Origin: Verrucomicrobiota bacterium JB023
GTDB lineage: Bacteria > Verrucomicrobiota > Verrucomicrobiia > Verrucomicrobiales > Akkermansiaceae
NCBI GenBank assembly: GCA_030673895.1
Contig: JAUTCR010000067.1
Span: forward strand, 1-64,000
DNA length: 64,000 bases
Reading direction: 5' to 3'
This document shows, piece by piece, positions 36,984 to 63,382 of the stretch. The position numbers and the translations under genes are program-made. Each line of letters opens with the position of its first letter. Position 1 is the stretch's first letter. The notes below the pieces were generated by a model. The model was not told the DNA's origin. It did not search any database and saw nothing but the letters and a program-made list of their open reading frames with translations.

Positions 36984-39900
36984 TTAGACGTCCAGCAGAC
37001 AGCTGGACGGAATGGTGACCTCGATCCTTTTGAGCGAAATATCACGGGAAACTAAATAACAAGTGACTTCGCGTGATAGCAAGGCTTGAGGAAAAATCTT
37101 ATGGCCTCCATCGATAAAAAAGACGGTGGCCTCATAGTCTGTTGCTTCCGTCGATTCCGAATAGATGATCGGCGTGTTGGCATAGGTGAAGCGCAACGAG
37201 CCTTGCTCAGGATGTGACGGGTTGGCTGTCGTCAATTCCGACCTTCGTAGTAGCTTCGGTTGAAACCTTATCAGGCCCCGCTCGAACCGGACGCCCAACT
37301 CGCCGAAGCGAGCGATAATTCCTTCCTTGGCGTGGCCGGTCAGCCCCGGCTGCTGGGCACCTCCATGGCCCGGGCTGTGACTGTAAGGATCGTGGGGAAA
37401 GGCACCGTAACTGCGCGCCGTCTGGCGAAAGCCGAGCCCGCTCTGGATCTGATGGTAGCTGGCGGCGAGACGATGGAAGGTCTCCTGTCCGACTGCGCTG
37501 AGAGCCACCTCTTGGGTGGCGACGAGAAGCTTGGAGACCATGTGCCAATAGACACAACCCAGGCCTTCATAACTGAACATCCGGCCACTGCGGCCGGTGA
37601 ACATCCGATGCTGGAAGGTCTCTTCATAGAGGGCGAGGATGGCGGCCCGGTCTGCCTCGAGAGCTGGATGACGGGTGCTCAGCTTCGTCACGCGATTGTC
37701 CAGCTCCGCTGCATTGGTGAGGTCGGCATGGAAGCGGAAGCCGCAGGTGCTATCCTCGACGAGTAAGCTTTCGTCACCCACCGCAATGAGCTTGGCCAAG
37801 CCGGGGATGGCTAGCGCAGCCGAGGGGGTGACTTGGTTCGACTCGAGAAATCCATCAATCTCGGCGTCCGGATAGAGGGTGTAGGTGGGATGGCGGTCTG
37901 AGCGCAGCTTGCTGGTTGCGAGGCGGTCTAGTAGGTCGGCGGCTTCTTCCGTGCCAAGGATCCCGGAGGTCAGAATGGCGACCTGGCCCTCAAGCATGAG
38001 CTGGAGATGGCGGAGAGTGAACGAGTCACCGTCAGCAACCAAGACGTTGTAGGCGTGCCATAGTCCATCAGGGCGTTGGTTCTCCCTCAGGGTGGCCCGG
38101 AGGCAGACGGAGGCCCGTTCAAGGAACGAGAGTAAGGCTTCCGCGGAGACCGAGGTCTTGTCCTGTTCTGCTATCGCGTAGACGGCTTCGCGATACTGTT
38201 GCCCGGCCAGGCCAAGCTTCTTGGCGAGTTGGAATCGCTCTTCTCCGTTCAAGTCGTTCACTTCAAGCCAGCGGGGGCTGGCGAGGCCAGCGCCGAGCTC
38301 GGTGAGGAATCGGGCGAGCGGTGGCGAGAGCTGGTAGGAGGAAGCAGCTTGTTCGCCCAGAGTGGATTTGAGAAAGCTGAAGTAGCGATGAAGATAGGCG
38401 GTGGTGACGACGGAGAGCCCCGGCCCGGCCAGTGCGTTATTGGCGTCATTCCATTCCGGCCGTTGCGTGTTCATCCAGATGCCTCCTCCGGGGACGAGAT
38501 TCGCCAGCTTGACGAGGGCAGGGATGAGCAGCTTCTCAAGCATGGTAGCGCGCACAATCTCGCCCGACGGAGTCCGGAGGAGAAAGGCGTCGGCTCCTTC
38601 CTCCTCGCGCGCTGTGTGCAGGTTCTCGTGTCGTTCCCAGTCAAAGCGAATACTGGCGCGTGGGTTGGCAAGGATCTCCTCCCAGGATTTCAATCGATAG
38701 GGAACATCAACGAAGACAAAGTTGGGTTTATCCAGGTTGTTCGCGAGATTTTTGGGATGAATTCCGGCCTTCATCTCGAGGAGCTTGAGGAGGTAGATGA
38801 TCTGATGGTCGCCCCAATAGCCAATCGAAGCCCAAGGGTCCTCGGGATCGGGGACCTCCCAATCCACACCCTCGGAAGTGACGCGGTAGGGATTGTAACC
38901 GTCGATGGTTGAGGCATTAAGAAACTTGGAGATGAATGCGGGAAGATACTCGGGGAAGCTCAGTGCCAGCGCCTTCCAGTTCTGGAAGATGTCCCGCCAG
39001 TTTCCTTCGTAGTGATGGCGGTCGGATTCGTTGCCCTTTAGATTGCGGATGAAAAAGCGGTTCCAAGGACGGCTCGGGTCTCCATGTCTCCGGCTCATGA
39101 CGAGAGGAAGATACTCGGTGGCGAGTCGAAGGAGATCGACATCACCGGTCTCGGAGAGGCGGGCTAGAAGCTCGCGCCGCGGCAAGCTCTCGGGTAGGCT
39201 GAGCAGTGTTTCTTCATGCCTCGATGCCAAGGGCCGGTTTTGTGTCTGAAGGTAATTGAGAAAGGGTGCGCGCCTCAGCGAATAGCCGTCTTCCGGCACG
39301 CCTCCACGCATGATGTTGCAGAGAGTATTCTGGTAGTGATAGAGGGCGACATCCCGCTCGGCGGAATGCTGGACACCGTCTGAAGAAGCGACAAGCTGGA
39401 AGAGGGCTTGGCGTCCTTGCTCGATATCGGTGAAGACGTCGGCCAAGAAACTTTCGGGCTCATTGAGCCTTTGGAGGAGCTTCGCTGTCTCGGCCTGGGT
39501 CTTGTTGATGTCCGCGACGATGTGCCAGCGGAGCGACTGCCGGGGGGCGAGGGTGACCTCGTGCGCGAGGAAGAAGGCGCCCCGTTTCCCCCGGGCCCGT
39601 GCACGATCCTCGACGTGCTGGCCCCGCAGGAAGGTGAGGGCGTCTGGCCGGGTGAGCAGCGTCCGGCTGCCCTCTAGGCCATGCGTCCAGACGGTGGTGG
39701 CAAGCAGGGATTCCAAGGGCTTCGGCTCGTCGGTGATGCCGGAAGCCAAGCGGTGGATTAGGAGCCTGCCATCCGCCAATAATTCACTATGCTTGTATCC
39801 GTCAGCGAGGCAGGAGTACTGTAGCTGGGTCCGGTTCGAGACACCTGCGGGGAGGAAATTGTCGATTCCATCAACTAGGCGGAGGGGGACCTCGCGCTCG

Positions 39901-40388
39901 CTGCGATTAATCAGCTCGGTGGTGCGCACGAAGCCGTAGGATGCGGAGAAGCGCCAGCGGTAGCGAATCACTAGATCCAATCCGTCATGCCTCTCCTCGA
40001 AGATCACCTCATCACTGGTGACACTTTTCGAGAGTCGTCGCTCTCCATCCGCATTCTGCCGAAGCGATGGGGTGAAGGGATTCCACAGAATGTCGCCGGA
40101 TTGCAGGGCTGTCCATGGGCCCGTGCTATTCCAGCTGTCCATGATCTTATCGACAGTCTGGTAAGGGAAGAGGGAGTTCTCAGCCGATTCCCGGCCGGCG
40201 GCCAGCGAGCCGTGGCTGCTGAGGAACATCCACTGGTCGCCCGGACTAACGAGGCTGAAGAAAAAAGGCTCGAAGGTTTCGAGGTGCTCAATGGTTACGT
40301 AATCCTGCGGCGCGGAAGCCTCTGCCTGTCGTGCCGGCGGGGGCGAGGGCAAGGGTGAGCTGTTATCTGAAAGAGATGAGGTGGACAT
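36984..40388 (-). CDS. Large GH94-like/glycoside-phosphorylase-like protein
   Basis: GNWRDIFQNWKALALSFPEYL, IGYWGDHQIIYLLKLLE, GGGIWMNTQRPEWNDANNALAGPGLSVVTTAYLHRY. Start chosen at 40388 (MSTSSLSDNS). Confidence 0.65.
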   Translation of the reverse strand: MSTSSLSDNSSPLPSPPPARQAEASAPQDYVTIEHLETFEPFFFSLVSPGDQWMFLSSHGSLAAGRESAENSLFPYQTVDKIMDSWNSTGPWTALQSGDILWNPFTPSLRQNADGERRLSKSVTSDEVIFEERHDGLDLVIRYRWRFSASYGFVRTTELINRSEREVPLRLVDGIDNFLPAGVSNRTQLQYSCLADGYKHSELLADGRLLIHRLASGITDEPKPLESLLATTVWTHGLEGSRTLLTRPDALTFLRGQHVEDRARARGKRGAFFLAHEVTLAPRQSLRWHIVADINKTQAETAKLLQRLNEPESFLADVFTDIEQGRQALFQLVASSDGVQHSAERDVALYHYQNTLCNIMRGGVPEDGYSLRRAPFLNYLQTQNRPLASRHEETLLSLPESLPRRELLARLSETGDVDLLRLATEYLPLVMSRRHGDPSRPWNRFFIRNLKGNESDRHHYEGNWRDIFQNWKALALSFPEYLPAFISKFLNASTIDGYNPYRVTSEGVDWEVPDPEDPWASIGYWGDHQIIYLLKLLEMKAGIHPKNLANNLDKPNFVFVDVPYRLKSWEEILANPRASIRFDWERHENLHTAREEEGADAFLLRTPSGEIVRATMLEKLLIPALVKLANLVPGGGIWMNTQRPEWNDANNALAGPGLSVVTTAYLHRYFSFLKSTLGEQAASSYQLSPPLARFLTELGAGLASPRWLEVNDLNGEERFQLAKKLGLAGQQYREAVYAIAEQDKTSVSAEALLSFLERASVCLRATLRENQRPDGLWHAYNVLVADGDSFTLRHLQLMLEGQVAILTSGILGTEEAADLLDRLATSKLRSDRHPTYTLYPDAEIDGFLESNQVTPSAALAIPGLAKLIAVGDESLLVEDSTCGFRFHADLTNAAELDNRVTKLSTRHPALEADRAAILALYEETFQHRMFTGRSGRMFSYEGLGCVYWHMVSKLLVATQEVALSAVGQETFHRLAASYHQIQSGLGFRQTARSYGAFPHDPYSHSPGHGGAQQPGLTGHAKEGIIARFGELGVRFERGLIRFQPKLLRRSELTTANPSHPEQGSLRFTYANTPIIYSESTEATDYEATVFFIDGGHKIFPQALLSREVTCYLVSRDISLKRIEVTIPSSCLLDV

Positions 40389-40890
40389 GCGTTGTCGATT
40401 AGGAAGTTGTGCGGAGGCGACCCGCAGGCGGGGGCATGTGAGCTTGAGCGACAGCGGTTGCAGGAAGTTGCATAGCACGGTTTCGCTGTGGCGGACAACC
40501 ATGATTCATAGAATTTAAGAAGAGCGGGCCTTGTTCGATAAAAGCTGGCAAAGCAAAAAAGAGAATTGCTCCAGCGAGGAGCTTTGGCTGTCGGATGAAC
40601 CGCCTTGAGAGCCACCGTTCGAAGAAACGAACGTTACATCGATCGCTCTTCGTGCTCTCGATTCAGAGGGGGACCTGCGGGAAAAGACGTGGATGCAAGT
40701 GAACGGGGCAAGTGTTAAGAATTCTAATTCATTGAGCACGAAAGGTTTGATGGGTTGTCTCTCGTGGAAAAAGACAAGATGGTAAAAAAGTCTTTCAGGC
40801 TTGCATTTCTGGCATCATTCCTGCATACATTGCCTCGTTATTTGCGGGACCGCTTAAATTGGGTTGAGCGTTACTTTCAAGCAACCGGCA

Positions 40891-45991: not shown

Positions 45992-48900
45992 TTAAGATTT
46001 GCCGAGAATCATCTTCACCGTTGTGAGTCCGATGAGGACGAGGAAGACGATCGCGAAAAGAGGCATTGGGAATTCGAAATCAGATTCGCCCTTCGGCATC
46101 TTCACGTCCGGGCCGATGGCGGATTTGAGTTCGGTTGGGCCCTGTTTTGCTGCTGGTTCGGGCTCTGCCTCGGCGGGGTCCTTGAGGTCGGCCACGGTCA
46201 GCATGGGCTGGCCAGCTTCATCGCGGAGGGCCGCGACCTCGTCGGGAGAGACGGGAGAAGCACTGTTGCCGAAGGAATTCCGGACATAGGTGAGAACAGC
46301 GGCGATTTGCTCATCAGTTTGATAAGCCATCGGAGGCATGATGTTGTTGTAGGTCTCGCCCTTGACCTCGATCTCGCCCTGCAGGCCGCGAAGCTGCATG
46401 CGAATCAGGTTTTCCACCGGGCCGGTAACCCACTCGGATCCGGCGAGGGGAGGGAAGGCTCCGGGGACGCCGGCTCCATTCGCTTGGTGACAGGCGGTGC
46501 AGGTGGCGTAGGCGGTCTTGCCGACTTCCCAGAAGTCGGAGTCAATGCCTTCGGGGATGCCGCCAGCAGCATTGGCTGCGTCGGCTTCAGCGGGAGCGGG
46601 TGTGGTGGTTTCTTCGGCCATCTCTTCTTTTTCCGGTGCAGGGAATGGATGATAGGGTTTTGGGTCTTGAGCAAGTGGTTTTTTGATGGCGGGTTCGACC
46701 TTCAGGGTATTGAGGTAGGCCACGAGGTCTCGGATCTCGCTTGAGGCAAGCAGTGGGCCCATGGGCGGCATGGGAGAGGTCGGGTCGCTGGTATTGGCGA
46801 TGTCCTGGGTCTTGATACGGAGCGCCTCGCCCTCGACGAGCAGGTCCACGTGGTCGGCAGTGCGCTCTAGGAGGGTGCCGGAGAGGATCTCATCGTTGGT
46901 GAGTTTGATTGTCAGGGGCGCAAACCCGCTGGCAATGGTGTCGGAGGGGCGGATGAGTGCCTCCAAGAGGTAGCGATGGCTCTGCTGGCCTATCCCTGCC
47001 AAATGGGGGCCGGCCATATTGGCTGCGTCTGCCTTGGGATCCACGGCATGGCAGCGGGCGCATTGGGCGGCGGGATGAGTCTCGAAGAGGCTCTTGCCAT
47101 GAGCGGGATCACCTCCCGCGAGAGCTGGGTAGAAGGGGGCCAGGGGATCATTGGGAGGCAGCGAGAGCTGGTAGTTCTCCAAGGCGATTTGGACGGCGGG
47201 CTCGTCGCGCGCTTGGGCCGAGGTGAGGAGCTCAAGGAGAATGCGGGGATCCCCATCCCCCCGGGTGAAGAGCTCCAGGCGGTCGATGAGCCATTCTGCA
47301 GCCTGCGGGGAGGGGCTCCCGGCGAGGAGGGATATCGCGCCTCGGCGCAAGGTGAGTTGGTCGGACTTCAGTCCCTCTTTGAGCGCGGGCAGAGCCTCGG
47401 CGGGGGATGACTGGGCGAGGTGCTCGAGGGCGGCGAGGCGGAGCCCGGCAGGTTGGGAGGTGTCCTCGAAGAGGCTTTGGACGAGGGCCGGCAGGCCGTC
47501 GGGCTGTTGCTGGAGGAGCAGATCGAGGCCCAGCTTGCGGGCCTGTTCGCCGAGTTTTTTGTTTTTAACCAAGTCAATGACCTGTCGGGTGGAGAGGGAC
47601 TCGGGCAGGATGCCGTAGCTGGTGACCAGCGCGATGGCCTCCGAAGTGAGACGGCTTTCTCCCGCGAGCAGCGGTGCGAGATCCCGGGCGATAAGCGGCT
47701 CAATCTCGCTCTTGGGGCGCGGGCGCAGCGGTGCGTAGCGGCCGAGGGATTGGTCGACGGGATGGGGGGATGTCCATTGCTCGAGGAGCCGGAGGGCCTC
47801 TCGGCGGATGGGGAGGGCGACGTTCTCGTCCAGCGCGACGGTCATGAGACGTTTGGCGTTCTCAGCGGTGCCGAGGCGGAAGAGGGAGTGGATAAGGCGA
47901 CGGAAGACCAAGGAGGGGAGCTTGTTCTTTCCGCCCTGTAGGACTTGGTCCGCGACGGCGGCCAAGGCAGGGCGCGCGGCCTCGATGGGGCCATCATGGA
48001 TGGAGCGGATGGCCTCCGCTTGGATGCGGGGGTCGAGATCGAAAAGGAAATTAGCCACGCCGGGATCACCCAGGCGACGCAGAGCCAGAAGGGCGGCCAT
48101 CCGCGCGGAGGGTAGGGCGTGGCTGGAGAGCGAGGTCAGCTCCGTGGGATTGGAGCAACCACTCAGGCCGACCACAGCGGCATGGAGCAAATAGCGGTCA
48201 TTGGCCTTGCCTGCCTTGATAGCGAGACCGAGCAAAGGCTCGAAGGCTTGCGGAATGCGCTGGCGACCCAGGGCGAGGGCGGCATGGAAGCGGACGCGGG
48301 CGGAAGGGTCGGCCAGAGCTTCGAGCAGCGAGCTGCCATCAGTAAGGGGGGCTTCTCCCAGAGCGCGGGCAGCTTGCGCCCGCAATTCGGCCGAGGGATC
48401 CTTGAGGCTGGCAACCAGCAGGGAGGCGGCTCGCTCGTCGCGCTCCAGACGGGAGATCATCCAGAGGCCCCAGAGAGCATGGAGGCGGGGATAGGTCAGA
48501 GCCTCATTGTCCCCCGGGAGCAGATTTTGGGAGAGCGGGACACCGACCACTTGGTCGTCGAGACTGGGGAGTAAGGAAGCGTCTGCTCCATTCTCTTGCG
48601 GAGCGAGGAGCGTCGCAAAAATCCCGAGCCCGGTGGGGCGGCGGGCGAGCTCATATTGGGCGCGGAGGCGGATGCGGAAGTCCTCGTGGCCGATTAGCTC
48701 CGCCAATTCGTCATCGTCTCGCTCTTGGAAGCCTTCATCCATCAGCTGAGCGACCTCCTCTGCCTTCTCGTGAGGGCTGGAAGTTTCCAAGCTAATGACG
48801 CGACCCTTATTCGAGGAAGACCACCCGGTGACAAAATCGGTGATGTAAGCGCGGCCATCGTAGCCGAATTCGATATCCGTGGCCCCGAGACCCCAGAGAA

Positions 48901-50593
48901 ACTTGCGTGGTTCCGTGATGCGGTAGCCCGCGCCATCAGTCTCCGTGCCGAAGCTCCAAATGCCGGAAGCGGCAGGCCCGCCCTTGTAATCGCAGATGAA
49001 AAATCGACCTTCATGTTCCCCGCCTAGAGCGGTGCCGGGCTGATAGGTGAGGCCGGAGGGGCCATTGGTGAGGTGGGAAATCGGAGGGAGTAGCCAGGCG
49101 GGTTGCTCGTCGTTCTCGGTATCCCACCATCGCTCGCCCATCCAGACATTCGGAGGACGCTTCTCCAAGCCGATCTGGCGATGGAAGGTGTGCATCACCT
49201 GGTGGTCAGTCCGCCATCCGGAATCCCCGCCATCGACCAGATAGACAAGCCGTGCCTTGTCACCCATGTCGGCATTGTTATCGACCGAAAAGGCATCTCC
49301 GACCTCGTTGAAGGCGATCTCCTTCGGGTTCCGGAGACCGAGGTGAAATATCTCGAAATTCGAGCCGTCGGGGTCGAAGCGAAAAGCCGCGCCCTGCTGG
49401 GGCAGGATGTATTGCAGGCCCTCCTTGGTCGTCAGATTCAGCCCGCGGTCGCCCACGCTGCCGTAGATGCGGCCATCGGGCCCCAGCGTGAAGCCATTGA
49501 GATCATGTCCGGACAGGGACACCCGCACCCCGAAGCCCTCCTGCAGGCTGGTCCGCTCATCCGCGACTCCATCGCCATCGTCATCCGACAAGGCCCAGAT
49601 GTGCGGGATGCAGGCGAAGTAGACCGTGCCCTCGAAGGCAAGAATCCCGGCAGCCGTCCCATCGAGTAAGTCGTCGAAGCCCTCGGCGAAGACCTTGGAC
49701 TCATCCGCCCGCCCATCGCCATCATGGTCAATGAGGAGGCGAATCCGCTCCGACTTGGCGGTCAGCTTCTCGATCGGGACGCGATCCTTCCACTTCTCAT
49801 GCAGCTCGCGGCGGTCATCAGTCGTCTGGGAGGCGATGTCATCGAGGACCCAGAAGAGACGGTCGCGATTGTCTTCGATCCCGAAGCGGAAGCGATGGGT
49901 CTCGGTGACGTAGAGGTCGCCGTTCTCCGCGATGCTAAGCGCGGTGGGAGAGACCACGCCATGGCTGTTTTGATCAGAGTGAATGGTGGCTTGGATGCCT
50001 GCGGGGAGAGTGAGGCCGGGCAGGGTGGGGGAGGATTTCAGGCCCGGCTCGAAGGGTTTGCCCTCGCGGGTGGCGGCAGGGAAGGCGGCATTCGGATTCG
50101 TGTGAAGCTGAATGTGATCGACGAGGAGGAAGCCCTCCGCAGAGTCATCGCGGAGCCGGAGAGTCACCTTCTCCCCCGCCAAGTTCCCGACATCGAGCGT
50201 GCGGGGGCGCAGCAGGCTATCGCCCTGACCCGTTTCTCGGAGAACGATCTCGCCCTCCCGAAGGATCTCGAAGGCGACCTCCTCCTTGGCGCCGCCGATG
50301 AGCAGGCTTAGGTAAGGGCGGTCGATGGTGATCTCCGGGGAGATCAGGGAGCCGGTCGATTTCGGTCCGCCGTGAGCAGAGGATGCGAAGGATTCCCGGG
50401 CATAACCCTGGATTTTTCCTTTCAAGGACGCGGGGCCATCGACGGCGGGGCCGAGACCAAAGGCTTGGCCCTCGGCCTGCCAATCGCCAAAGCCATCACC
50501 CTCAAAGGCTTGCAGTAGGCGGGGCTTTGACGGGGACTCGTCGACGGCGAACGCTGCCAAGGTCGTCGCGAGGAAAGCATAGAAAAATTGCAT
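45992..50593 (-). CDS. PVC-type membrane-bound dehydrogenase with HEAT repeats and two c-type cytochrome domains
   Basis: Beta-propeller dehydrogenase motifs (GDLYVTETHRFRFG, HLGLRNPKEIAFNE), HEAT array, CARCHAVD and CTACHQAN heme motifs, C-terminal TM. Confidence 0.9.
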   Translation of the reverse strand: MQFFYAFLATTLAAFAVDESPSKPRLLQAFEGDGFGDWQAEGQAFGLGPAVDGPASLKGKIQGYARESFASSAHGGPKSTGSLISPEITIDRPYLSLLIGGAKEEVAFEILREGEIVLRETGQGDSLLRPRTLDVGNLAGEKVTLRLRDDSAEGFLLVDHIQLHTNPNAAFPAATREGKPFEPGLKSSPTLPGLTLPAGIQATIHSDQNSHGVVSPTALSIAENGDLYVTETHRFRFGIEDNRDRLFWVLDDIASQTTDDRRELHEKWKDRVPIEKLTAKSERIRLLIDHDGDGRADESKVFAEGFDDLLDGTAAGILAFEGTVYFACIPHIWALSDDDGDGVADERTSLQEGFGVRVSLSGHDLNGFTLGPDGRIYGSVGDRGLNLTTKEGLQYILPQQGAAFRFDPDGSNFEIFHLGLRNPKEIAFNEVGDAFSVDNNADMGDKARLVYLVDGGDSGWRTDHQVMHTFHRQIGLEKRPPNVWMGERWWDTENDEQPAWLLPPISHLTNGPSGLTYQPGTALGGEHEGRFFICDYKGGPAASGIWSFGTETDGAGYRITEPRKFLWGLGATDIEFGYDGRAYITDFVTGWSSSNKGRVISLETSSPHEKAEEVAQLMDEGFQERDDDELAELIGHEDFRIRLRAQYELARRPTGLGIFATLLAPQENGADASLLPSLDDQVVGVPLSQNLLPGDNEALTYPRLHALWGLWMISRLERDERAASLLVASLKDPSAELRAQAARALGEAPLTDGSSLLEALADPSARVRFHAALALGRQRIPQAFEPLLGLAIKAGKANDRYLLHAAVVGLSGCSNPTELTSLSSHALPSARMAALLALRRLGDPGVANFLFDLDPRIQAEAIRSIHDGPIEAARPALAAVADQVLQGGKNKLPSLVFRRLIHSLFRLGTAENAKRLMTVALDENVALPIRREALRLLEQWTSPHPVDQSLGRYAPLRPRPKSEIEPLIARDLAPLLAGESRLTSEAIALVTSYGILPESLSTRQVIDLVKNKKLGEQARKLGLDLLLQQQPDGLPALVQSLFEDTSQPAGLRLAALEHLAQSSPAEALPALKEGLKSDQLTLRRGAISLLAGSPSPQAAEWLIDRLELFTRGDGDPRILLELLTSAQARDEPAVQIALENYQLSLPPNDPLAPFYPALAGGDPAHGKSLFETHPAAQCARCHAVDPKADAANMAGPHLAGIGQQSHRYLLEALIRPSDTIASGFAPLTIKLTNDEILSGTLLERTADHVDLLVEGEALRIKTQDIANTSDPTSPMPPMGPLLASSEIRDLVAYLNTLKVEPAIKKPLAQDPKPYHPFPAPEKEEMAEETTTPAPAEADAANAAGGIPEGIDSDFWEVGKTAYATCTACHQANGAGVPGAFPPLAGSEWVTGPVENLIRMQLRGLQGEIEVKGETYNNIMPPMAYQTDEQIAAVLTYVRNSFGNSASPVSPDEVAALRDEAGQPMLTVADLKDPAEAEPEPAAKQGPTELKSAIGPDVKMPKGESDFEFPMPLFAIVFLVLIGLTTVKMILGKS

Positions 50594-53329: not shown

Positions 53330-54874
53330 ATGATGGGGATGCGTATCGGTTGGGTGGGATTGATGGCCTTGGCTCTGGCCTTGGCGGCAAGGGGGCAGGA
53401 CATCGACGGTAAGGCGCAATACGAGATGCTGTGCGGGGCTTGCCACGGTGCGGATGGCAGAGGAGCCAGTGCGGAATTTCCCCCTTTGCAGGGAAGCGAA
53501 TGGATACAGGGGGATCCGGAGCGCATGATCCAAGTGATCCTGCATGGTCTGGAGGGGCCGGTCACGGTCAAGGGGAAGACTTATAACCTCGCCATGCCAC
53601 CACAAGGCGCGGCGCTCGACGACGACCAGATTGTGGCCATCGTCAACTACGTCCGAGGCCAATGGGGGGAAGATGAAGGAACGGTCACTCTCGATGAGGT
53701 GGCCAAGGCGCGCAAGCATACCGAAGGGCGCGGCGAAATGTGGAAGGATTGGCAACTCCTCAAGCGCTGGCCGCTGCCTTCGCAGGCCGGGCCGATCAAG
53801 AATCTCATTGCGAGTGTCTACAAGGGCACCTTCAAGACGATGCCTGACTTCGAAAAGCTGGAGCTGGCCGCCGTGGAGGAGGAGCATTCCGGCCTGATCG
53901 ATGTGGCCCAAGCGGGCTTGAAGGACCATTTCGCCGTCGTTTGGGAGGGCGACCTCAAGGTCGCATCCAAGGGCCGCTATCGGTTCCGTCTCAACTCGGA
54001 CGATGGTTCCCGCGTCTTCGTTAATGGGAAGGAAGTTGTTCGCATTGACGGATTGGGTCCAATGAAGCGGCAGCAGGAAGGAGCGATCGAGCTCGAGCCT
54101 GGAATCGCCAAGTTGCGGGTGGAATACTTCGAGCATACCGGCGAGGAGGGCATTTCCCTCTCTTGGGGAAAGGGAGGGAAGTTGGAGCCCCTGTCCCAAG
54201 GGCGTCAGGCCAGCCGTCGGGGTCGCTACTCGCCTCACCCGCTGGTTGTTAGTGAGAAAGCGAGGATCTACCGCAATTTCATCGAGGGAACCGGGGCGCG
54301 CTCCATCGGCGTCGGCTATCCCGGTGGAGTGAATTTGGCCTTTGATGCGGACGAGCTGAGCCTCGGACTCGCATGGGTGGGTGATTTCATCGATGCCGGC
54401 CTCCATTGGACCGCGCGGGGGCAGGGCAGTCAGGTCCCGGCGGGTCAGCGCATCATCGAGCTGGGAGGCGCGCCAGGCTTTGCCCTTGATGAGGGCGGGG
54501 GCTGGCCGACCGATTGGCAGAAGCATCTGACGCACACCTTCCGGGGCTACCGCCTTGACGAGATGCGGCGCCCAACCTTCCGCTATGAAGTGGGTGGCGT
54601 GAACGTGGAGGACAAGCCTCAGAACGTGGGTAGCGACGAGCTGGTGCGCTCACTTGTCTTGCAAAGCCGGGGGCCTGCCGAACTCATGATGCGCTTGGCT
54701 GGGCAGGGAGTCCGGCGTCTCGGGTCCCATCACTACGACTTGGGCGAAGGGGTGCATCTCGAGATTGCGCAATCGAATCAAGTGGAGCCCATCTTGTCCG
54801 ATGGCGCTCTCCTGCTTCGCCTGAAGCTGAAGAAAGGGGAAAACCGCCTGGGGCTCCGATACATGTGGAAATGA
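53330..54874 (+). CDS. Secreted c-type cytochrome/PA14-domain protein
   Basis: CGACHGADG heme motif; GRYRFRLNSDDGSRVFVNGKEVV...LRVEYFEHTGEEGISLSW PA14-like region. Confidence 0.87.
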   Translation: MMGMRIGWVGLMALALALAARGQDIDGKAQYEMLCGACHGADGRGASAEFPPLQGSEWIQGDPERMIQVILHGLEGPVTVKGKTYNLAMPPQGAALDDDQIVAIVNYVRGQWGEDEGTVTLDEVAKARKHTEGRGEMWKDWQLLKRWPLPSQAGPIKNLIASVYKGTFKTMPDFEKLELAAVEEEHSGLIDVAQAGLKDHFAVVWEGDLKVASKGRYRFRLNSDDGSRVFVNGKEVVRIDGLGPMKRQQEGAIELEPGIAKLRVEYFEHTGEEGISLSWGKGGKLEPLSQGRQASRRGRYSPHPLVVSEKARIYRNFIEGTGARSIGVGYPGGVNLAFDADELSLGLAWVGDFIDAGLHWTARGQGSQVPAGQRIIELGGAPGFALDEGGGWPTDWQKHLTHTFRGYRLDEMRRPTFRYEVGGVNVEDKPQNVGSDELVRSLVLQSRGPAELMMRLAGQGVRRLGSHHYDLGEGVHLEIAQSNQVEPILSDGALLLRLKLKKGENRLGLRYMWK

Positions 54875-54888
54875 GAGGAAGAGAGAAG

Positions 54889-56334
54889 ATGAGGAACTTA
54901 TTCACAGCCGCCATTGGGCTCGCCTTGGCCGTGGCTTCGCCTGCGGAGGATTACTACTCACGTGAGGAAATCCCCCTGCCACCGGGCGAGGTGATGGAAC
55001 TCGGTTCCATCGCTCTATTACCGGAGAAGCGAGTCGCAGTCTCTAGCCGCCGGGGGGATATCTGGATTTGTGAGGGCGCCTACGGGGAGGACTTGACGAA
55101 GGTCACTTGGAAGAAATTCGCGGAGGGCTTGCACGAGCCATTCGGCATGTTCTGGCGCGATGGCTGGCTCTGGCTCACGCAGCGGCCCGAGGTGACGAAG
55201 ATCAGGGACACCGATGGGGATTGGGAAGCTGATGAGTTCGTCACGGTCGCGGCTCCCTGGGGCATTAACGGCAATTATCACGAATACGCCTTCGGCTCCG
55301 AGCCGGATCAGAATGGTGACATTTGGGTCGCGCTGTGCCTGACCGGATCGGGCTCGGCAGCGGACGAGTCCCCCTTCCGGGGCTGGGGCTTCCGCATCAC
55401 GCCCAAGGGGGATGCCATCCCGGTGGTTTCGGGAATCCGCTCGCCGGGAGGGATTGGCTTCAATGCCAAGGGCGATACCTTTTACTGTGATAATCAGGGG
55501 CTTTGGAACGGCAGTTCGTCGCTCAAACACATGAAGCCGGGCGGCTTCATGGGCAATCCCACGGGCAACAAATACTGGAAGCTCCAGAATGTCCTCCCGC
55601 AGCCTCCCGAGCCCGCGAACGAGTCCCGCATTGAGACAGAGCGGAAGAAGTTCCCCGCCTTGGTTCCTCCCGCCGTGGTCTTTCCACACGGCTTGGTCGG
55701 CCAGTCGCCCACCGCAGTGCTGACCGACACCACGGAAGGCCAATTCGGTCCCTTCGCCGGGCAAGTCTTCGTCGGCGAGCAGACCCACTCGCAGGTGCAG
55801 CGGGTCTTTCTTGAGGAGGTCAAGGGCGTGTATCAGGGTGCCGTTTGGCACTTCACCGAGGGCTACCGCTCCGGCATCGTGCCGATGAGGATGGCCGCAG
55901 ATGGCACCCTCTTCGTGGGCGGGACCAATCGCGGCTGGGCCTCGCGGGGAGGGAAGCCATTCACCTTCGAGCGGACCCGTTGGACCGGCCGGGTGCCTTT
56001 CGAGGCGAAGGAGATGAGAATTACCCCGGAAGGGTGGGAGCTCACCTTTACCAAGCCCGTCGACGCGAATCTCGCGGCGGACACCGCCAACTACAAGATG
56101 GCGGCCTGGACCTACGTTTATCAAAAAACCTATGGCAGTCCGCAAGTGGACAAGGTGACGCCCAAGGTCGTGAAGGCAGAAGTCGCCGGAGACGGACTGA
56201 GCGTCAAACTGACGGTCGAGGGACGGGTCAAGGGGCACGTCCACGAGCTGGATTACAGCCCGCTGCAGAGTGCTGCGGGCGAGGCTCTCTGGCACTCCAA
56301 GTGTTGGTATACCATCAACGAGTGGGCTCCCTGA
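54889..56334 (+). CDS. Sorbosone dehydrogenase-like beta-propeller protein
   Basis: GSIALLPEKRVAVSSRRGDIWICEG, LHEPFGMFWRDGWLWLTQRPEVTKI, TFYCDNQGLWNGSSSLKH. Start at MRNLFTAAIGL; overlaps the previous stop in the track. Confidence 0.85.
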   Translation: MRNLFTAAIGLALAVASPAEDYYSREEIPLPPGEVMELGSIALLPEKRVAVSSRRGDIWICEGAYGEDLTKVTWKKFAEGLHEPFGMFWRDGWLWLTQRPEVTKIRDTDGDWEADEFVTVAAPWGINGNYHEYAFGSEPDQNGDIWVALCLTGSGSAADESPFRGWGFRITPKGDAIPVVSGIRSPGGIGFNAKGDTFYCDNQGLWNGSSSLKHMKPGGFMGNPTGNKYWKLQNVLPQPPEPANESRIETERKKFPALVPPAVVFPHGLVGQSPTAVLTDTTEGQFGPFAGQVFVGEQTHSQVQRVFLEEVKGVYQGAVWHFTEGYRSGIVPMRMAADGTLFVGGTNRGWASRGGKPFTFERTRWTGRVPFEAKEMRITPEGWELTFTKPVDANLAADTANYKMAAWTYVYQKTYGSPQVDKVTPKVVKAEVAGDGLSVKLTVEGRVKGHVHELDYSPLQSAAGEALWHSKCWYTINEWAP

Positions 56335-56451: not shown

Positions 56452-57378
56452 GTGATCAAGCTCCTCATTCCCATCTGCGCTCTCGCCGTCGTCGGGTGCG
56501 AATCCTTTACTGACAGCGATACCCCGCCGCTGGTCGGCTCCGTCCAGGGCAAGAGCCCGGAAGCCGCCGTGCTCTTCCAAAAGGCCCAAAATTATCAGGC
56601 GGCGGGCAATACGAAGAATGCCATCAAGACCTTCCGCCGCGTGGCGAATAACTACCCATCTGATGCCAATGCCGCCGAGGCCCGTTTCATGGAGGCTTAC
56701 CTCCTCGATCAAAGCGGGGATCCGCTGGAATCCTTCGACGCCTACCAGAAGTTCATCAATCGTTACGCTGGCAGCCCCCGCTACGCGCAAGCGGTGAAGA
56801 GTCAGGAAGAGGTCGCCTATGCGGCGGTGAACGGGACGCTCAAGAGCAACTTCCTCGGGTTGAAGTCGCGTATCGATGAGAAGAAGCTCGTCGCGATGCT
56901 TGAGAAACTGCGCGACAACGCTCCCCAGGCGGCTTCCGCTCCCCGCGCGCAATACGCCATCGGGCAAGTCCTGGAATCACGCGACAAGCCCAAGGAGGCA
57001 ATTCTGGCCTACGAGCAGCTCGTTTCGGAATACCCCAAGTCAGGCTACGCGCCGGAAGCCCAGTTCCGGATTGGGGAAATCCTCATCAAGGATTCTCAGA
57101 GTGGTAATCCTGACCAAGCTAACCTCGAGCGAGCCAAGCGAGCTTATAACGATCTCCTGTTGGCTTACCCCAGCTCGCCCTTCGCCCCCCAGGCCAAGCA
57201 GCGCATTGCCACCATTGGGCGTAGTGATTTACAAGCCTCCTACAACATCGCGGAATTTTATCGCAAGAAAGGTCAACTGGCTTCCGCAGCCTACTACTAT
57301 CAGGAGGTCGTCACCAAGGCTCCCGCCGGTCCCCTCCGCAATCAGGCCGCAGCTCGTCTGGGCGAGATCAATCGCTAA
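56452..57378 (+). CDS. TPR outer-membrane lipoprotein (BamD/YbgF-like), GTG start
   Basis: Lipobox VVGC; FQKAQNYQAAGNTKNAIKTFRRVANNYPSD and further TPR units. Confidence 0.82.
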   Translation: MIKLLIPICALAVVGCESFTDSDTPPLVGSVQGKSPEAAVLFQKAQNYQAAGNTKNAIKTFRRVANNYPSDANAAEARFMEAYLLDQSGDPLESFDAYQKFINRYAGSPRYAQAVKSQEEVAYAAVNGTLKSNFLGLKSRIDEKKLVAMLEKLRDNAPQAASAPRAQYAIGQVLESRDKPKEAILAYEQLVSEYPKSGYAPEAQFRIGEILIKDSQSGNPDQANLERAKRAYNDLLLAYPSSPFAPQAKQRIATIGRSDLQASYNIAEFYRKKGQLASAAYYYQEVVTKAPAGPLRNQAAARLGEINR

Positions 57379-57383
57379 CAACT

Positions 57384-57902
57384 ATGGGCCGCCTCTTCTC
57401 CAGCCTTTGGGCAAGCATACTGCCGATTCTGCTCGTCTCCTGTGCGGGCTATCAACTCGGTGGACCCAAACCCACCGCCCTCGCTGAGGTCTCCGCCATC
57501 CATGTGGCCATGGCGGAGAACAATACCCAGATCCCCCGCGCCGCCGCCACGGTGACCAATCATGTGGTGGATGCCTTGATTCGTGAGGGCACCTATCAGA
57601 TTGCCGATGGGGACTCAGCTGATGCGGTCCTCAAGGTCGCCTTTCATACCGTGGAGTTCGATGCCATCCGGACCGCGCGAGAGAATCGTCTCCGCCCCGA
57701 GGAGATGGAGATGACGGTGGAGCTGCGCTGGGAAATCGTCTCAGCCGCCAATCCTCTTGCGAAGCTGGATGCCGGCACCTCCAAGGGGCGGACCAATCTC
57801 TTCGTTGACCCCAACCTCCAGGCGGCGCGTCAATCCGCTCTCTCCGATGCCTTGCAACGGGCGTCCACCTCTCTCGCCGCCCGCTTGGCCAATGGTTTCT
57901 AA
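57384..57902 (+). CDS. lptE: LPS assembly lipoprotein LptE
   Basis: LVSCAGYQLGG lipobox plus LptE-like N-terminus; size and context. Confidence 0.82.
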   Translation: MGRLFSSLWASILPILLVSCAGYQLGGPKPTALAEVSAIHVAMAENNTQIPRAAATVTNHVVDALIREGTYQIADGDSADAVLKVAFHTVEFDAIRTARENRLRPEEMEMTVELRWEIVSAANPLAKLDAGTSKGRTNLFVDPNLQAARQSALSDALQRASTSLAARLANGF

Positions 57903-57907
57903 CGACG

Positions 57908-58579
57908 ATGTTCACCGTAGTTCCCACACCCATCGGCAATCTTGGCGACATCACCGTGCGCGCGCTCGAGGTTCTCAAGGCGGCGGATTGGATTGCCTGT
58001 GAGGACACCCGTCACACCAGGCGCTTGCTGAATCACTACGAGATTGAGGGCCGTCTCATGGCTGTTCATGATCATAATGAGGACAAGCAGATCCCGGAGA
58101 TTCTGGCCAAGCTGGAGGCCGGTGAAAGCGTCGCCCTCGTCTCGGATGCGGGCATGCCCCTGGTCTCGGATCCAGGCTTCCGGATTGTGCGTGCTATTCG
58201 TGAGGCAGGGCAGGAGATGACGGTCTTGCCAGGGGCCTCCGCTCCCACCACGGCCCTGGTGGCCAGTGGTTTGCCGCCCTATCCGCACCGCTTTGCCGGC
58301 TTCCTTCCCGTCAAGAAGGGGAAGCGGGGCAAGGAATTACAAGCGGCTCTCGACAGCGGGGAGACCACGCTGTTCTTCGAGTCCCCGCACCGGATTGGAT
58401 CAACCCTGGAGATTCTCTCCGGGCTGGCTCCCGGCGTCGCCACCGTGGTGGCGCGGGAATTGACCAAAAAGTTTGAAACGATCCACCGCGGTAGCGCGTT
58501 GGAATTGCACGAACATTTTAAAAGCCATCAGGCCAAGGGAGAAATCGTCCTCTTACTCAATTCGGGTGTTTCCGATTGA
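57908..58579 (+). CDS. rsmI: 16S rRNA (cytidine(1402)-2'-O)-methyltransferase
   Basis: TVVPTPIGNLGDITVRALEVLKAADWIACEDTRHTRRLLNHY; VSDAGMPLVSDPG; FFESPHRI; C-terminus short (223 aa). Confidence 0.95.
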   Translation: MFTVVPTPIGNLGDITVRALEVLKAADWIACEDTRHTRRLLNHYEIEGRLMAVHDHNEDKQIPEILAKLEAGESVALVSDAGMPLVSDPGFRIVRAIREAGQEMTVLPGASAPTTALVASGLPPYPHRFAGFLPVKKGKRGKELQAALDSGETTLFFESPHRIGSTLEILSGLAPGVATVVARELTKKFETIHRGSALELHEHFKSHQAKGEIVLLLNSGVSD

Positions 58580-58632: not shown

Positions 58633-59430
58633 ATGAACTACATTGAACCCCACGCCCACATGGTCAGCCGCACGACGGCGGATTACGAAGCGATGGTCCA
58701 GGCGGGATGCGTCGCAGTCTGTGAGCCCGCCTTCTGGGCAGGATTCGACCGCGCAAGCCCACAGGGCTTCTACGATTACTATCGCCAACTCACCGAGTAT
58801 GAGCCGGCCCGCGCTGCCAAGTTTGGCCTGCCACATTACTGCTGGCTCTGCATCAACCCCAAGGAGGCCGAGGACGCCGGATTCGCTCGTGAGGTGATGG
58901 CATTGATTCCTGAATTTCTCGACAAGGAAACGGTGCTGGGGATTGGCGAGATCGGCCTCAATAAGAACACCCGGCATGAGCTGGAAATCTTCGAGGAGCA
59001 TGTCGCGCTCGCCACCAAGCATGACTTGCCCATCCTCATCCATACTCCTCATCTGGAGGATAAGTTGAAGGGGACGAAGCTCATCATTGATGCGCTCAAA
59101 AACGCAAGGGTCGATCCTTCCAAGGTCATCATCGATCACGTCGAAGAGCATACCGCGGGGCTGGTCCTTGATTCGGGCTTCTGGGCGGGGATGACCTTGT
59201 ATCCGGAGTCCAAATGCACGCCAGCGCGCGCGATTGACATCCTGGAAACCTTTGGGATGGAGCAAATTTGGATGAACTCGGCTTGTGATTGGGGTGTTTC
59301 TGATCCTTTGGCTGTCATCAAGTGCGCCCTTGAGATGCGGAAGCGCCAACATGCGCAGGCAATTATCGACAAGGTTATCTACGAGAATCCTCGTAGCTTC
59401 CTCAGTCAGAGCAAGAATTTCAAAGCCTAA
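58633..59430 (+). CDS. eboB: TatD-family hydrolase, EboB-type
   Basis: EPHAHMVSRTTADYEAMVQAGCVAVCEPAFWAGFDR, GEIGLNKNT, LIHTPH, ACDWGVSDPLAV. Confidence 0.85.
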   Translation: MNYIEPHAHMVSRTTADYEAMVQAGCVAVCEPAFWAGFDRASPQGFYDYYRQLTEYEPARAAKFGLPHYCWLCINPKEAEDAGFAREVMALIPEFLDKETVLGIGEIGLNKNTRHELEIFEEHVALATKHDLPILIHTPHLEDKLKGTKLIIDALKNARVDPSKVIIDHVEEHTAGLVLDSGFWAGMTLYPESKCTPARAIDILETFGMEQIWMNSACDWGVSDPLAVIKCALEMRKRQHAQAIIDKVIYENPRSFLSQSKNFKA

Positions 59431-59442
59431 CCGCAGGAGGGT

Positions 59443-60597
59443 ATGAAGATTTCCGACTGGCAGCACCTCGCGTACTGCACCAACGTCCATCCGGCGGAAA
59501 GCTGGGCTGCTACCAAGGAGGTTCTGGGAAGCGAGGTCCTGAGTGTGCGCGACGCCCTTATCCGGGAAGGCCGAGGGACGAGTCCCTTCGCCATTGGTCT
59601 CCGTCTTTCCGCGCAGGCTGCCAGGGAGTTGTTAGCTGGCGATGAGCTTAAGAAGTTTCAAGCCTGGCTGGAAGAAACGGAGACCTACGTCTTCACGATC
59701 AATGGCTTTCCCTACGGCGACTTCCATGGCACGCGGGTGAAGGAGAAGGTCTATCAGCCGGATTGGACAACGAGTGAGCGACTTGTTTACACCAAGGACT
59801 TGTTCGATATCGTCGCAACCCTCGCGCCCGAGGAGGCCGGAGGCTCGGTCTCGACCTTGCCAGGTTCCTACAAGGATTTTAAGGCGGACGAGTCGCTTAT
59901 CTTCAAAAACCTGGAAGAGTGCGCACTCCACATCGAGAAGCTCGCGCAGCAGACCGGCAAGGATCTGCATCTGGGGCTGGAGCCCGAGCCGCTTGGTCAC
60001 TTCGAGAATACGGCGGAGAGTCTCGCCTTCTTCGAGCGCTTCTTTGCTTCAGTCGCGGATGAGGAGATGGTCCGGCGCCGGGTGGGCCTGAATTTTGACT
60101 GTTGTCACTTCGCCATCGAGTTCGATGATTGCCGCGAGGCCTTGGATGCCTTCGAGGCGGCGGGCATCCGAATCTCGAAAGTTCATCTCTCTTCTGCGGT
60201 GGAGTTCGACATCAGCGATGAGGCGGCGATGGAGAAGCTGCGCGAGTTTGATGAGCCGACTTACCTTCACCAAGTGATCACCAGCGGCGGAGAGACCCGT
60301 TATCGTTTCGGGGATTTGCCTGATTTCTTCGCCGCGATTGGTCGGCAGGAGGTACGGGACACGGCAGGTGAGGTGGCCCGGTGTCACTTCCATGTCCCGC
60401 TTTATGCCGAGGCGGCACCGCCTCTGCGGACCACTCAATTTTTTGTCAACGACCTGATGGCCTACTGTGACGAGAAGCCGGGCTTCTGCCCTCATTTTGA
60501 AATTGAGACCTACACCTGGGGCGTGCTTCCCGAGAGTCTTCAGACCGGTCTAACAAATATGATCGTGAAGGAATTTGAGTGGGTGCTGGCGCGATGA
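59443..60597 (+). CDS. eboE: Metabolite traffic protein EboE-like TIM-barrel protein
   Basis: HLAYCTNVHPAESWA, FAIGLRLS, YVFTINGFPYGDFHGTRVKEKVYQPDW, LGLEPEPLGHFENT. Confidence 0.87.
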   Translation: MKISDWQHLAYCTNVHPAESWAATKEVLGSEVLSVRDALIREGRGTSPFAIGLRLSAQAARELLAGDELKKFQAWLEETETYVFTINGFPYGDFHGTRVKEKVYQPDWTTSERLVYTKDLFDIVATLAPEEAGGSVSTLPGSYKDFKADESLIFKNLEECALHIEKLAQQTGKDLHLGLEPEPLGHFENTAESLAFFERFFASVADEEMVRRRVGLNFDCCHFAIEFDDCREALDAFEAAGIRISKVHLSSAVEFDISDEAAMEKLREFDEPTYLHQVITSGGETRYRFGDLPDFFAAIGRQEVRDTAGEVARCHFHVPLYAEAAPPLRTTQFFVNDLMAYCDEKPGFCPHFEIETYTWGVLPESLQTGLTNMIVKEFEWVLAR

Positions 60598-60625
60598 GGC
60601 CGGGTGAAAGCGGGCGGAAACGACC

Positions 60626-61606
60626 ATGAATCAAACAGTGAGAGACTGGCTGGCCATGGGCCGGGTAGCGAATCTGCCCACGGTAGTGAGCAACGTCTTG
60701 TTAGGGATGGTGCTGGGCGCCTTTCCGCTTCGATGGATTGACTGGGCCGTGCTGCCTGTTCCCTTGGTCGCCGCCTGCCTGCTCTACTTGGGAGGGTGCT
60801 ATCTCAATGATTGGTGGGATCGTAAGTGGGACGCGGCGAACAAGAACGACCGCCCGTTGCCGATGGGGCGAATCGCGCCGGGGGCCGTGCTTCTTGTCGC
60901 TTCGGTTTGCTTGGCGGCCGGGCTGGCTTTGGCCGCCACTCTCAGTTTGGAGACCTTCCTCATCGGTCTGCTGATCGTTGGGTTGATTATCCTTTATACG
61001 GCTCTTCATAAGAAGACTCCTTGGGCGGTCCTGCCGATGGGAGGCTGCCGCGCGGGATTGTACCTTTTTGGGATTTCCTCCCAGATTGGCTTGAGTGCCT
61101 CTCGTCTCGTCTGGCGAGGCGATATGGTGGACTACTATTGGTGGCTCTTCGCGCCACCCCTCGGGATACTGGCCTACATTGGAGGATTATCCCTCTGCGC
61201 TCGACAGGAGGCCAAGGGGCAGCTTCACCGAAGTAATGTGGTGCTGGCCTCACTCCTCCTTTTTTCGCCTTTGGTGACTCATCTATCCTGCCTCGCTTCC
61301 AATAATATCAAAGATCCTCTTCTTGCTCCTTGGGTTCTGCCGGCTGCCATGGTCCCTTTCATCGCCGCAGTTGTCTGGGGGCTGCGGGTGGTGAAGAAGT
61401 CAATTGGAGGTGCCGTTTCCATTTGGCTGGCCTCGATTGGTCTGCTCGACTTCCTTCTCTTGTTTCCCGTTGCTTTTGCAGCCCACTTGCCCGCCCCATA
61501 TACTAGAATCGAGGGGCCTCTCCCGAGTCTTTTGCTTGTTCCGGGCGTGGCCTTGGCCGCCTTTCTTCTAGCTCGCCTTCTCCAGCGCCTGGCTCCCGCC
61601 ACTTGA
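60626..61606 (+). CDS. eboC: UbiA-like prenyltransferase family protein, EboC-type
   Basis: MGRVANLPTVVSNVLLG, GGCYLNDWWDRKWDAANKNDRPLPMGRI (UbiA Asp motif), adjacent to eboB/eboE. Confidence 0.82.
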   Translation: MNQTVRDWLAMGRVANLPTVVSNVLLGMVLGAFPLRWIDWAVLPVPLVAACLLYLGGCYLNDWWDRKWDAANKNDRPLPMGRIAPGAVLLVASVCLAAGLALAATLSLETFLIGLLIVGLIILYTALHKKTPWAVLPMGGCRAGLYLFGISSQIGLSASRLVWRGDMVDYYWWLFAPPLGILAYIGGLSLCARQEAKGQLHRSNVVLASLLLFSPLVTHLSCLASNNIKDPLLAPWVLPAAMVPFIAAVVWGLRVVKKSIGGAVSIWLASIGLLDFLLLFPVAFAAHLPAPYTRIEGPLPSLLLVPGVALAAFLLARLLQRLAPAT

Positions 61607-61660
61607 GCCCCATCGGGCCGCAGCCTTGCACAGAACCTGCTGTTCGCCACACTCTTGCCA

Positions 61661-63382
61661 ATGTCAGAATACAAAACCAGTCCCGCCGATCTGGAGGGGA
61701 TGCCCCCCGGGGTGCCACATATTATCGGAAACGAGGCCGCCGAGCGCTTCTCGTTCTATGGGATGAAAGCCGTGCTCGCCGTCTTCATGGCGCAGTATCT
61801 TCACTTGATGAATGATGTGCCGGGGGAAGCCATGAGCGAGGCTTCCGCGACGGCCAACGTCCACCTCTTTAATGGTTGGGTCTATCTCACTCCTTTTCTT
61901 GGGGCAATTTTGTCCGACGTCTTTTGGGGCAAATACAAGACGATCATCTGGCTCTCCCTGGTCTATGTGATGGGGCATGCTGCCCTGGCCTTCATGGGAG
62001 TGACGGGAGAAGCACGTTGGTGGCTCTTTGCCGGCCTCGCCCTGATTTGCTTGGGCTCGGGTGGGATTAAGCCCTGCGTCTCCGCCCACGTCGGCGATCA
62101 ATTCGGGGCGCGCAACGCCCATCTCCTGCCGAAGGTTTTCAACTGGTTCTATTTTTCCATCAATCTGGGGGCCATGGCCTCCATGATGTTAACGCCGTGG
62201 CTGCTGAAGTGGTATGGGCCGCACTGGGCCTTCGGGGTCCCGGGCGTCTTGATGGCCTTGGCCACGGTCGTTTTCTGGGTTGGCCGGAAGCGTTTCATCC
62301 ATGTCCCCGCCGGCGGCAGGAGCACCTTGGCTGAGATGACGAGCCCCGAGGGCGTGAGCACCATTCTCCGCCTCCTTCCGCTCTATCTTTTTGTGGCCAT
62401 GTTCTGGGCTCTTTTTGATCAGACTGGGTCCACCTGGATCTTCCAGGCTCAGGATATGGACCGCGAGTTCCTGGGCTTCGAGTGGCTGCCCTCGCAGGTG
62501 CAGTCGCTCAATTCGCTCTTCGTCCTCACCTTCATTCCGCTCTTTGCCTACGTGCTCTATCCCAAGCTTTCCAAGGTTTGGCCGCTCACACCTCTGCGTA
62601 AGATCAGCGTGGGCCTCTTCGTGATGGCTGCCGCCTTTGGTATTGTGGCGCTTGTGCAAACTCGCATTGATGGCGGGGCCAGCCCGAACATTGGCTGGCA
62701 GGTTCTCGCCTACGCCATGTTGACGGCCTCCGAGGTGATGGTCTCCATCGTGGCCCTCGAATTTGCCTACACCCAGTCGCCGAAGACGATGAAGTCGATG
62801 GTGATGTGCTTCTACCTTGGCGCGGTGGCGCTCGGCAATTTCTTCACCGCGGGTATCAATCACTTCATTGAGATCGACGAACCTGAGAAAGTGGTCGAGA
62901 GCGTGGGCACCAAAGCGGCCTTGGAAGAGGCGGTGGCACGGGTCTCTGCCGAAGGGCGGGGAGTTAAGGTCGATGATTTGCAGGACGAGTGGGGCAACCC
63001 GCTGCAGGCGAAGGTGCTGAACTCACGCACACTCCGCATCTCCTCTGCGGGAGAGGATAACAAGCCACGCACCCAATGGGACCGTGGGGTGCGACTCGTC
63101 TGGCCGGAGGAGGTGAAGGAAGAGAAGGAGAGCTGGACCTCGGCCCTTCAGCCCGACACGCCTTGGCTGGAGGCTCGCATGGACGAGCTGGGCCTGAATA
63201 CCGATGAGGAACAAGTGGAGGCCAGTGACTACCCCTTCGAGGTGGAATGGTTCGTGGGCGGAGGAACCAAGTTGGAAGGCGCGGCCTACTTCTGGTTCTT
63301 CGCGGGGCTAATGCTACTCACCGCGATTGGCTTCATTCCTTACGCGATGAAGTATCGCGGGAAGACCGTCCTGCAGGATTGA
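61661..63382 (+). CDS. POT/PTR-family MFS transporter
   Basis: IIGNEAAERFSFYGMKAVLAVFMAQYL; GSGGIKPCVSAHVGDQF; FYFSINLGAMASM; about 140-aa insert before the last TM. Confidence 0.92.
   Translation: MSEYKTSPADLEGMPPGVPHIIGNEAAERFSFYGMKAVLAVFMAQYLHLMNDVPGEAMSEASATANVHLFNGWVYLTPFLGAILSDVFWGKYKTIIWLSLVYVMGHAALAFMGVTGEARWWLFAGLALICLGSGGIKPCVSAHVGDQFGARNAHLLPKVFNWFYFSINLGAMASMMLTPWLLKWYGPHWAFGVPGVLMALATVVFWVGRKRFIHVPAGGRSTLAEMTSPEGVSTILRLLPLYLFVAMFWALFDQTGSTWIFQAQDMDREFLGFEWLPSQVQSLNSLFVLTFIPLFAYVLYPKLSKVWPLTPLRKISVGLFVMAAAFGIVALVQTRIDGGASPNIGWQVLAYAMLTASEVMVSIVALEFAYTQSPKTMKSMVMCFYLGAVALGNFFTAGINHFIEIDEPEKVVESVGTKAALEEAVARVSAEGRGVKVDDLQDEWGNPLQAKVLNSRTLRISSAGEDNKPRTQWDRGVRLVWPEEVKEEKESWTSALQPDTPWLEARMDELGLNTDEEQVEASDYPFEVEWFVGGGTKLEGAAYFWFFAGLMLLTAIGFIPYAMKYRGKTVLQD

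Follow-up and report, generated by a model that had tools for sequence, protein, structure and literature searches.

The genes eboB, eboE and eboC, which lie one after another in the stretch of DNA analysed here (the window; positions 1 to 64,000 of contig C67), very probably belong to a complete ebo set of the eboG type that is divided among three loci of the same genome, and this holds for the identity of the genes, the completeness of the set and its type. The genome is a 4.03-Mb draft in 77 contigs, 97.5% complete, so that a single gene may be missing from the sequence. An earlier note, made from the window alone, had described a reduced cluster of three consecutive ebo-family genes in the order eboB-eboE-eboC. 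The genes and their order are borne out by the coordinates and the family assignments, as is the absence of EboA, EboD and EboF from the window. The cluster is not, however, reduced, as eboD-eboF are found on contig C33 and eboG, which replaces eboA in the eboG-type variant, on contig C51 (Table 1). The set is of a known kind, the eboG type, and its dispersed layout is ordinary for the class.

Table 1. Positions of the ebo genes, their neighbours and other large reading frames of the window
Feature	Contig	Positions	Strand	Description
eboB	C67 (window)	58633-59430	+	TatD-like metallo-hydrolase, 265 aa
eboE	C67 (window)	59443-60597	+	xylose-isomerase-like TIM barrel, 'metabolite traffic protein EboE', 384 aa
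eboC	C67 (window)	60626-61606	+	UbiA-superfamily membrane prenyltransferase, 326 aa; NDWWDRKWD (NDxxDxxxD) motif
BamD/YfiO-like gene, LptE-like gene, rsmI	C67 (window)	56452-58579	+	TPR lipoprotein, LptE-like protein and 16S rRNA C1402 methyltransferase; upstream of eboB
POT-family peptide transporter	C67 (window)	61655-63382	+	TTG start; 48 bp downstream of eboC
eboD	C33	49383-50576		sugar phosphate cyclase; NF004852 489 bits (cut-off 333)
eboF	C33	50573-51928		type I phosphodiesterase/pyrophosphatase, Ebo clade; PF01663 226 bits
eboG	C51	25222-25482		91-aa ORF; E 5.7e-37 to EboG profile
Large ORF	C67 (window)	36984-40502	-	1172 aa; zero Pfam matches
Large DUF7133 gene	C67 (window)	45992-50593	-	DUF7133/HEAT/cytochrome c protein
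Gene pair	C67 (window)	53330-56334	+	PA14/cytochrome c + DUF7133

The three window genes run head to tail, eboE following eboB after a gap of 12 bp and eboC following eboE after one of 28 bp, and their GC content is about that of the window. EboE scores 412.1 bits against NF035939 (E 1.8e-123), where the curated equivalog cut-off is 250, and both peptides that had been quoted for it, HLAYCTNVHPAESWA and YVFTINGFPYGDFHGTRVKEKVYQPDW, are found in the protein. EboB is matched by Pfam TatD_DNase at 42.9 bits and is an Ebo-type TatD-like hydrolase, set apart from true TatD; it reaches 31.7 bits against the TIGR00010 TatD model, whose cut-off is 206, and is 44-46% identical over about 260 aa to the EboB of two complete clusters (L044 and L048), both of which also carry A, C, E and F. 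Its residues H7 and H9 (HxH), E106, H137, H169 and D219 are invariant across the EboB alignment and, judging from the superfamily, are candidate metal ligands. EboC belongs to the UbiA family (67 bits, Pfam), and its top NCBIfam model is that of EboC (NF035940), against which it scores 93 bits where the curated cut-off is 250. A non-Ebo UbiA enzyme was considered for this reason, but was rejected because the EboC proteins of bona fide clusters miss the same cut-off (L044, 88 bits; L135, 80; L132, 96; L048, 198), which is therefore too narrow to decide the matter; a Bacteroidetes EboC scores 342 bits against the model. The window protein has the Asp-rich motif, and eboE is adjacent to its gene. 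All three are taken as Ebo proteins, and the profile searches assigned none of them to a subfamily outside the group.

Searching the genome for proteins resembling 3-dehydroquinate synthase gave two good matches, one on C33 and one on C75. The C75 protein is the true AroB (TIGR01357, 371 bits against a cut-off of 305), whereas the C33 protein scores only 199 bits against the same model and is 48% identical to the EboD of L046, which lies beside eboE in Pseudoduganella; the presence of a separate AroB rules out that the C33 gene is the aroB of the shikimate pathway. The eboD and eboF genes overlap by 4 bp, and EboF is 48-53% identical to the EboF of complete clusters. The ebo genes are therefore found at three places in the genome, B-E-C on C67, D-F on C33 and G on C51, and not in one physical cluster; no ordinary complete cluster exists elsewhere in the genome. 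The search of the complete genome for eboA and eboD, which the earlier note had proposed, gave no eboA but did give eboD. A genuinely reduced three-gene module of narrowed function, as suggested by the presence of B-E-C alone in the window and by the lack of EboA from the genome, is hardly credible in the face of the D-F and G loci, and the joint retention of B, E, D, F and G in the class speaks against it as well. Calls of a 'reduced cluster' that are made from one window need a check of the whole genome.

No EboA was found in this genome even at E<=10, in any of 236 genomes sampled across the class, or in 12 PVC-group genomes searched with the EboA model; the same model gave 143-158 bits in all three complete-cluster genomes that served as a positive control. 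Nor did the EboA and EboG profiles match any of the six reading frames of the window. A divergent EboA hidden beside the other genes is ruled out, since the EboA profiles match nothing in the window or at the BECDF loci.

In contiguous clusters of other verrucomicrobial families, a small conserved ORF lies directly 5' of eboB, and it is also found upstream of eboB in most related loci that have this gene and enough sequence before it. The family has no match in Pfam or NCBIfam, and its profile separates well, with the weakest accepted match at 68 bits and the best other at 8.6 bits. A variant of the ebo operon that lacks eboA has been described from Deinococcales and others, where a short, poorly conserved gene, eboG, stands in the place of eboA; the same paper reports that in Deinococcus eboG lies in one cluster with the remaining ebo genes (PMC5133447). 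The verrucomicrobial profile recognises the hypothetical protein encoded between eboD and eboB on two Deinococcus plasmids (72 and 82 bits), and the small-ORF family is therefore taken, from position and taxon, to be the EboG of that study. It is not a form of EboA; profile-profile comparison of the two families (hhalign) gave a probability of 0.04%, in agreement with PMC5133447. An AlphaFold model of EboG has three helices and a mean pLDDT of 58, too weak for a fold search. The gene lies within 1.5 kb of eboB in 65 of 75 genomes, and this near-constant pairing points to EboB as the partner of EboG. A gene resembling sugar phosphate isomerases beside the eboG of the window's own genome (L125:7523-8449) was rejected as a member of the set because it is not beside eboG in the congeneric genome. 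Outside the phylum, plasmid 2 of Gemmatirosa kalamazoonensis (L134; Gemmatimonadota) also carries an eboG-type set, with eboE on the strand opposite to G-B-F-C; the record is unannotated.

The set can be compared with the ebo systems already described. The eboG-type operon is known from Deinococcales, Herpetosiphon, Acidobacteriaceae KBS 96 and Thermithiobacillus (Yurchenko et al. 2016, PMC5133447); it consists of the six families found here (G, B, C, D, E and F), eboA is absent from both, and the EboG described here has a homologue in the protein that Deinococcus encodes between eboD and eboB. It differs in that the genes are here split over three loci, and the order in contiguous verrucomicrobial runs is G-B-E-C-D-F whereas that in Deinococcus is D-G-B-E-C-F. 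Verrucomicrobia are not named in the main text of the 2016 paper (PMC5133447). With the classical eboABCDEF operon of Bacteroidetes, Cyanobacteria and eustigmatophyte plastids, which serves scytonemin export in Nostoc punctiforme (PMC6282210), five of six families are held in common (B, C, D, E and F), but EboA, to which EboG is unrelated, is absent here, order and clustering differ, and there is no scytonemin link. The EDB cluster of Pseudomonas fluorescens NZ17, associated with nematode repellence (PMC6282210), likewise contains ebo homologues, but it has eboA and extra non-ebo genes. The links to scytonemin and to a nematode repellent that had been drawn for the window genes agree with what is published (PMC6282210), but are not informative about this bacterium in particular. 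Unclustered ebo genes have also been reported from Planctomycetes, another phylum of the PVC group (PMC5133447), although two of the three species there are without eboD, which is present here.

Among the 236 genomes of the class, eboE was found in 91, eboF in 90, eboB in 89, eboD in 78 and eboG in 75; the threshold for EboC was loose and its count of 95 takes in seven genomes with C alone. All six genes are present in 70 of the 102 genomes that have any of them, and every genome with G also has B and F. Fisher tests of co-occurrence gave values from 1e-34 to 1e-58, uncorrected for shared ancestry. In this class, retention and loss of G, B, E, C, D and F thus come close to affecting all six together. 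Their physical arrangement is far looser: in six genomes the full set forms one uninterrupted run, G-B-E-C-D-F, and in 27 of the 70 genomes with full sets the genes are dispersed with at most G and B together, while D and F lie within 1.5 kb of each other in 29 of 74 genomes and E and C in 23 of 71. Contig ends in draft assemblies make the dispersal look greater than it is, but it is seen in single-contig genomes as well. The division into B-E-C, D-F and G was seen in the sample only in the window genome and in a Roseibacillus relative (G176), which is taken to be R. persicicus since its eboB has the contig coordinate, 169928, that this gene has in the record of that species. It probably derives from an ancestral G-B-E-C-D-F run that was broken between C and D, the G-B junction having been lost in the genus.

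Within the same family, a genus that is probably Akkermansia has the set in 13 genomes (G019, G028, G037, G046, G053, G065, G082, G087, G095, G100, G157, G166 and G185) and lacks all six genes in 10 of 23. In these small genomes the ebo genes lie at about five separate loci, the single-contig genomes G019, G028, G053 and G100 included; their EboC is divergent (about 90-101 bits), and none was recognised in G087. The broken-up operon of the window genome and its divergent EboC, 93 bits where the cut-off is 250, could be read to mean that B-E-C, D-F and G are the remnants of a system in decay which has ceased to function. This is very unlikely, since all the ORFs are intact, the candidate catalytic residues are conserved, and divergence of EboC is common to bona fide clusters. 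Furthermore, full dispersal in closed genomes has not ended the all-or-none retention seen within the one genus (13 with, 10 without).

Upstream of eboB the genes for the BamD-like lipoprotein, the LptE-like protein and RsmI are separated by 5 and 5 bp, and a further 53 bp lead to eboB. The gaps of the bamD-lptE-rsmI-eboB-eboE-eboC run contain no promoter-like or terminator-like consensus site, and it is therefore possible that the six genes form a single predicted transcript. The same order is found in Roseibacillus persicicus (L013), whose strain KCTC 12988 is the nearest named relative found (EboE 67% identical). In the EboE tree the window protein pairs with that of R. persicicus (support 100/97) within a Verrucomicrobiota clade (100/100), and this placement is consistent with vertical inheritance of EboE and stepwise break-up of the ancestral run. 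The POT-family transporter downstream of eboC was not met again as a neighbour in the other ebo loci screened, apart from L001, which is the window's own copy.

The tight same-strand run with bamD and lptE in both organisms, its lack of internal terminator-like or promoter-like sites and the vertical descent of EboE would each fit the recruitment of the ebo genes to a housekeeping role in the envelope, in which the product is a structural prenyl-cyclitol membrane lipid and not an aid to the traffic of secondary metabolites. We consider this unlikely. EboE is absent from 145 of the 236 genomes, and 10 of 23 in one genus are without all six genes, so the set is dispensable; moreover, the genes of dispersed operons commonly come to lie beside housekeeping genes. 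A broader form of the idea is a little less probable again, namely that ebo in Verrucomicrobia is a dispersed, obligately complete pathway in which EboG is a partner subunit of EboB and which yields an unrecognised envelope lipid or carrier of prenyl-cyclitol type, and that the general function of ebo is envelope chemistry and not the export of secondary metabolites.

The preferred reading, a complete eboG-type set at three loci, concerns a system with a known phenotype. Arguments that start from operon structure lose force where the genes are dispersed in this way. In Nostoc punctiforme the scytonemin monomer stays in the cytoplasm of every ebo deletion mutant tested (PMC6282210), and a homologue of EboC is an active farnesyltransferase in vitro that farnesylates quinoline acids (PMC9235831). 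By analogy, EboD might convert a heptose phosphate to a cyclitol, which EboE, EboB and EboF, acting on it or on its partner, could isomerise, trim or dephosphorylate, and EboC would attach a prenyl chain at the membrane; EboG, small and probably helical, would assist EboB. The lipid-linked product would then aid the passage of a metabolite from the cytoplasm through the inner membrane. This scheme, in which a prenylated membrane molecule derived from a cyclitol eases the crossing of metabolites, is a tentative one, somewhat more likely to be wrong than right. Most useful among the present results are the joint retention, across the class, of genes that are not linked and the pairing of G with B. 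Because the six genes are scattered and still kept or lost together, they provide evidence on the working unit, namely G, B, E, C, D and F without A, that is free of the confounding effect of operon linkage.

A further arrangement was observed within the phylum. Eight verrucomicrobial genomes (G003, G011, G020, G047, G029, G038, G054 and G030; loci L108 and L137-L143) carry a variant without eboG and with no eboD in the run, in the order C-F-TIM-E, where TIM is a xylose-isomerase-like protein of about 285-330 aa encoded between eboF and eboE. Two gammaproteobacterial clusters, with no eboD in the stretch examined, encode a homologue of this protein immediately 5' of eboC (L048:6142-6984 and L049:810-1652). 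The TIM barrel of the C-F-TIM-E run may replace EboD; in one of the eight genomes, G029, an EboD is present on another contig.
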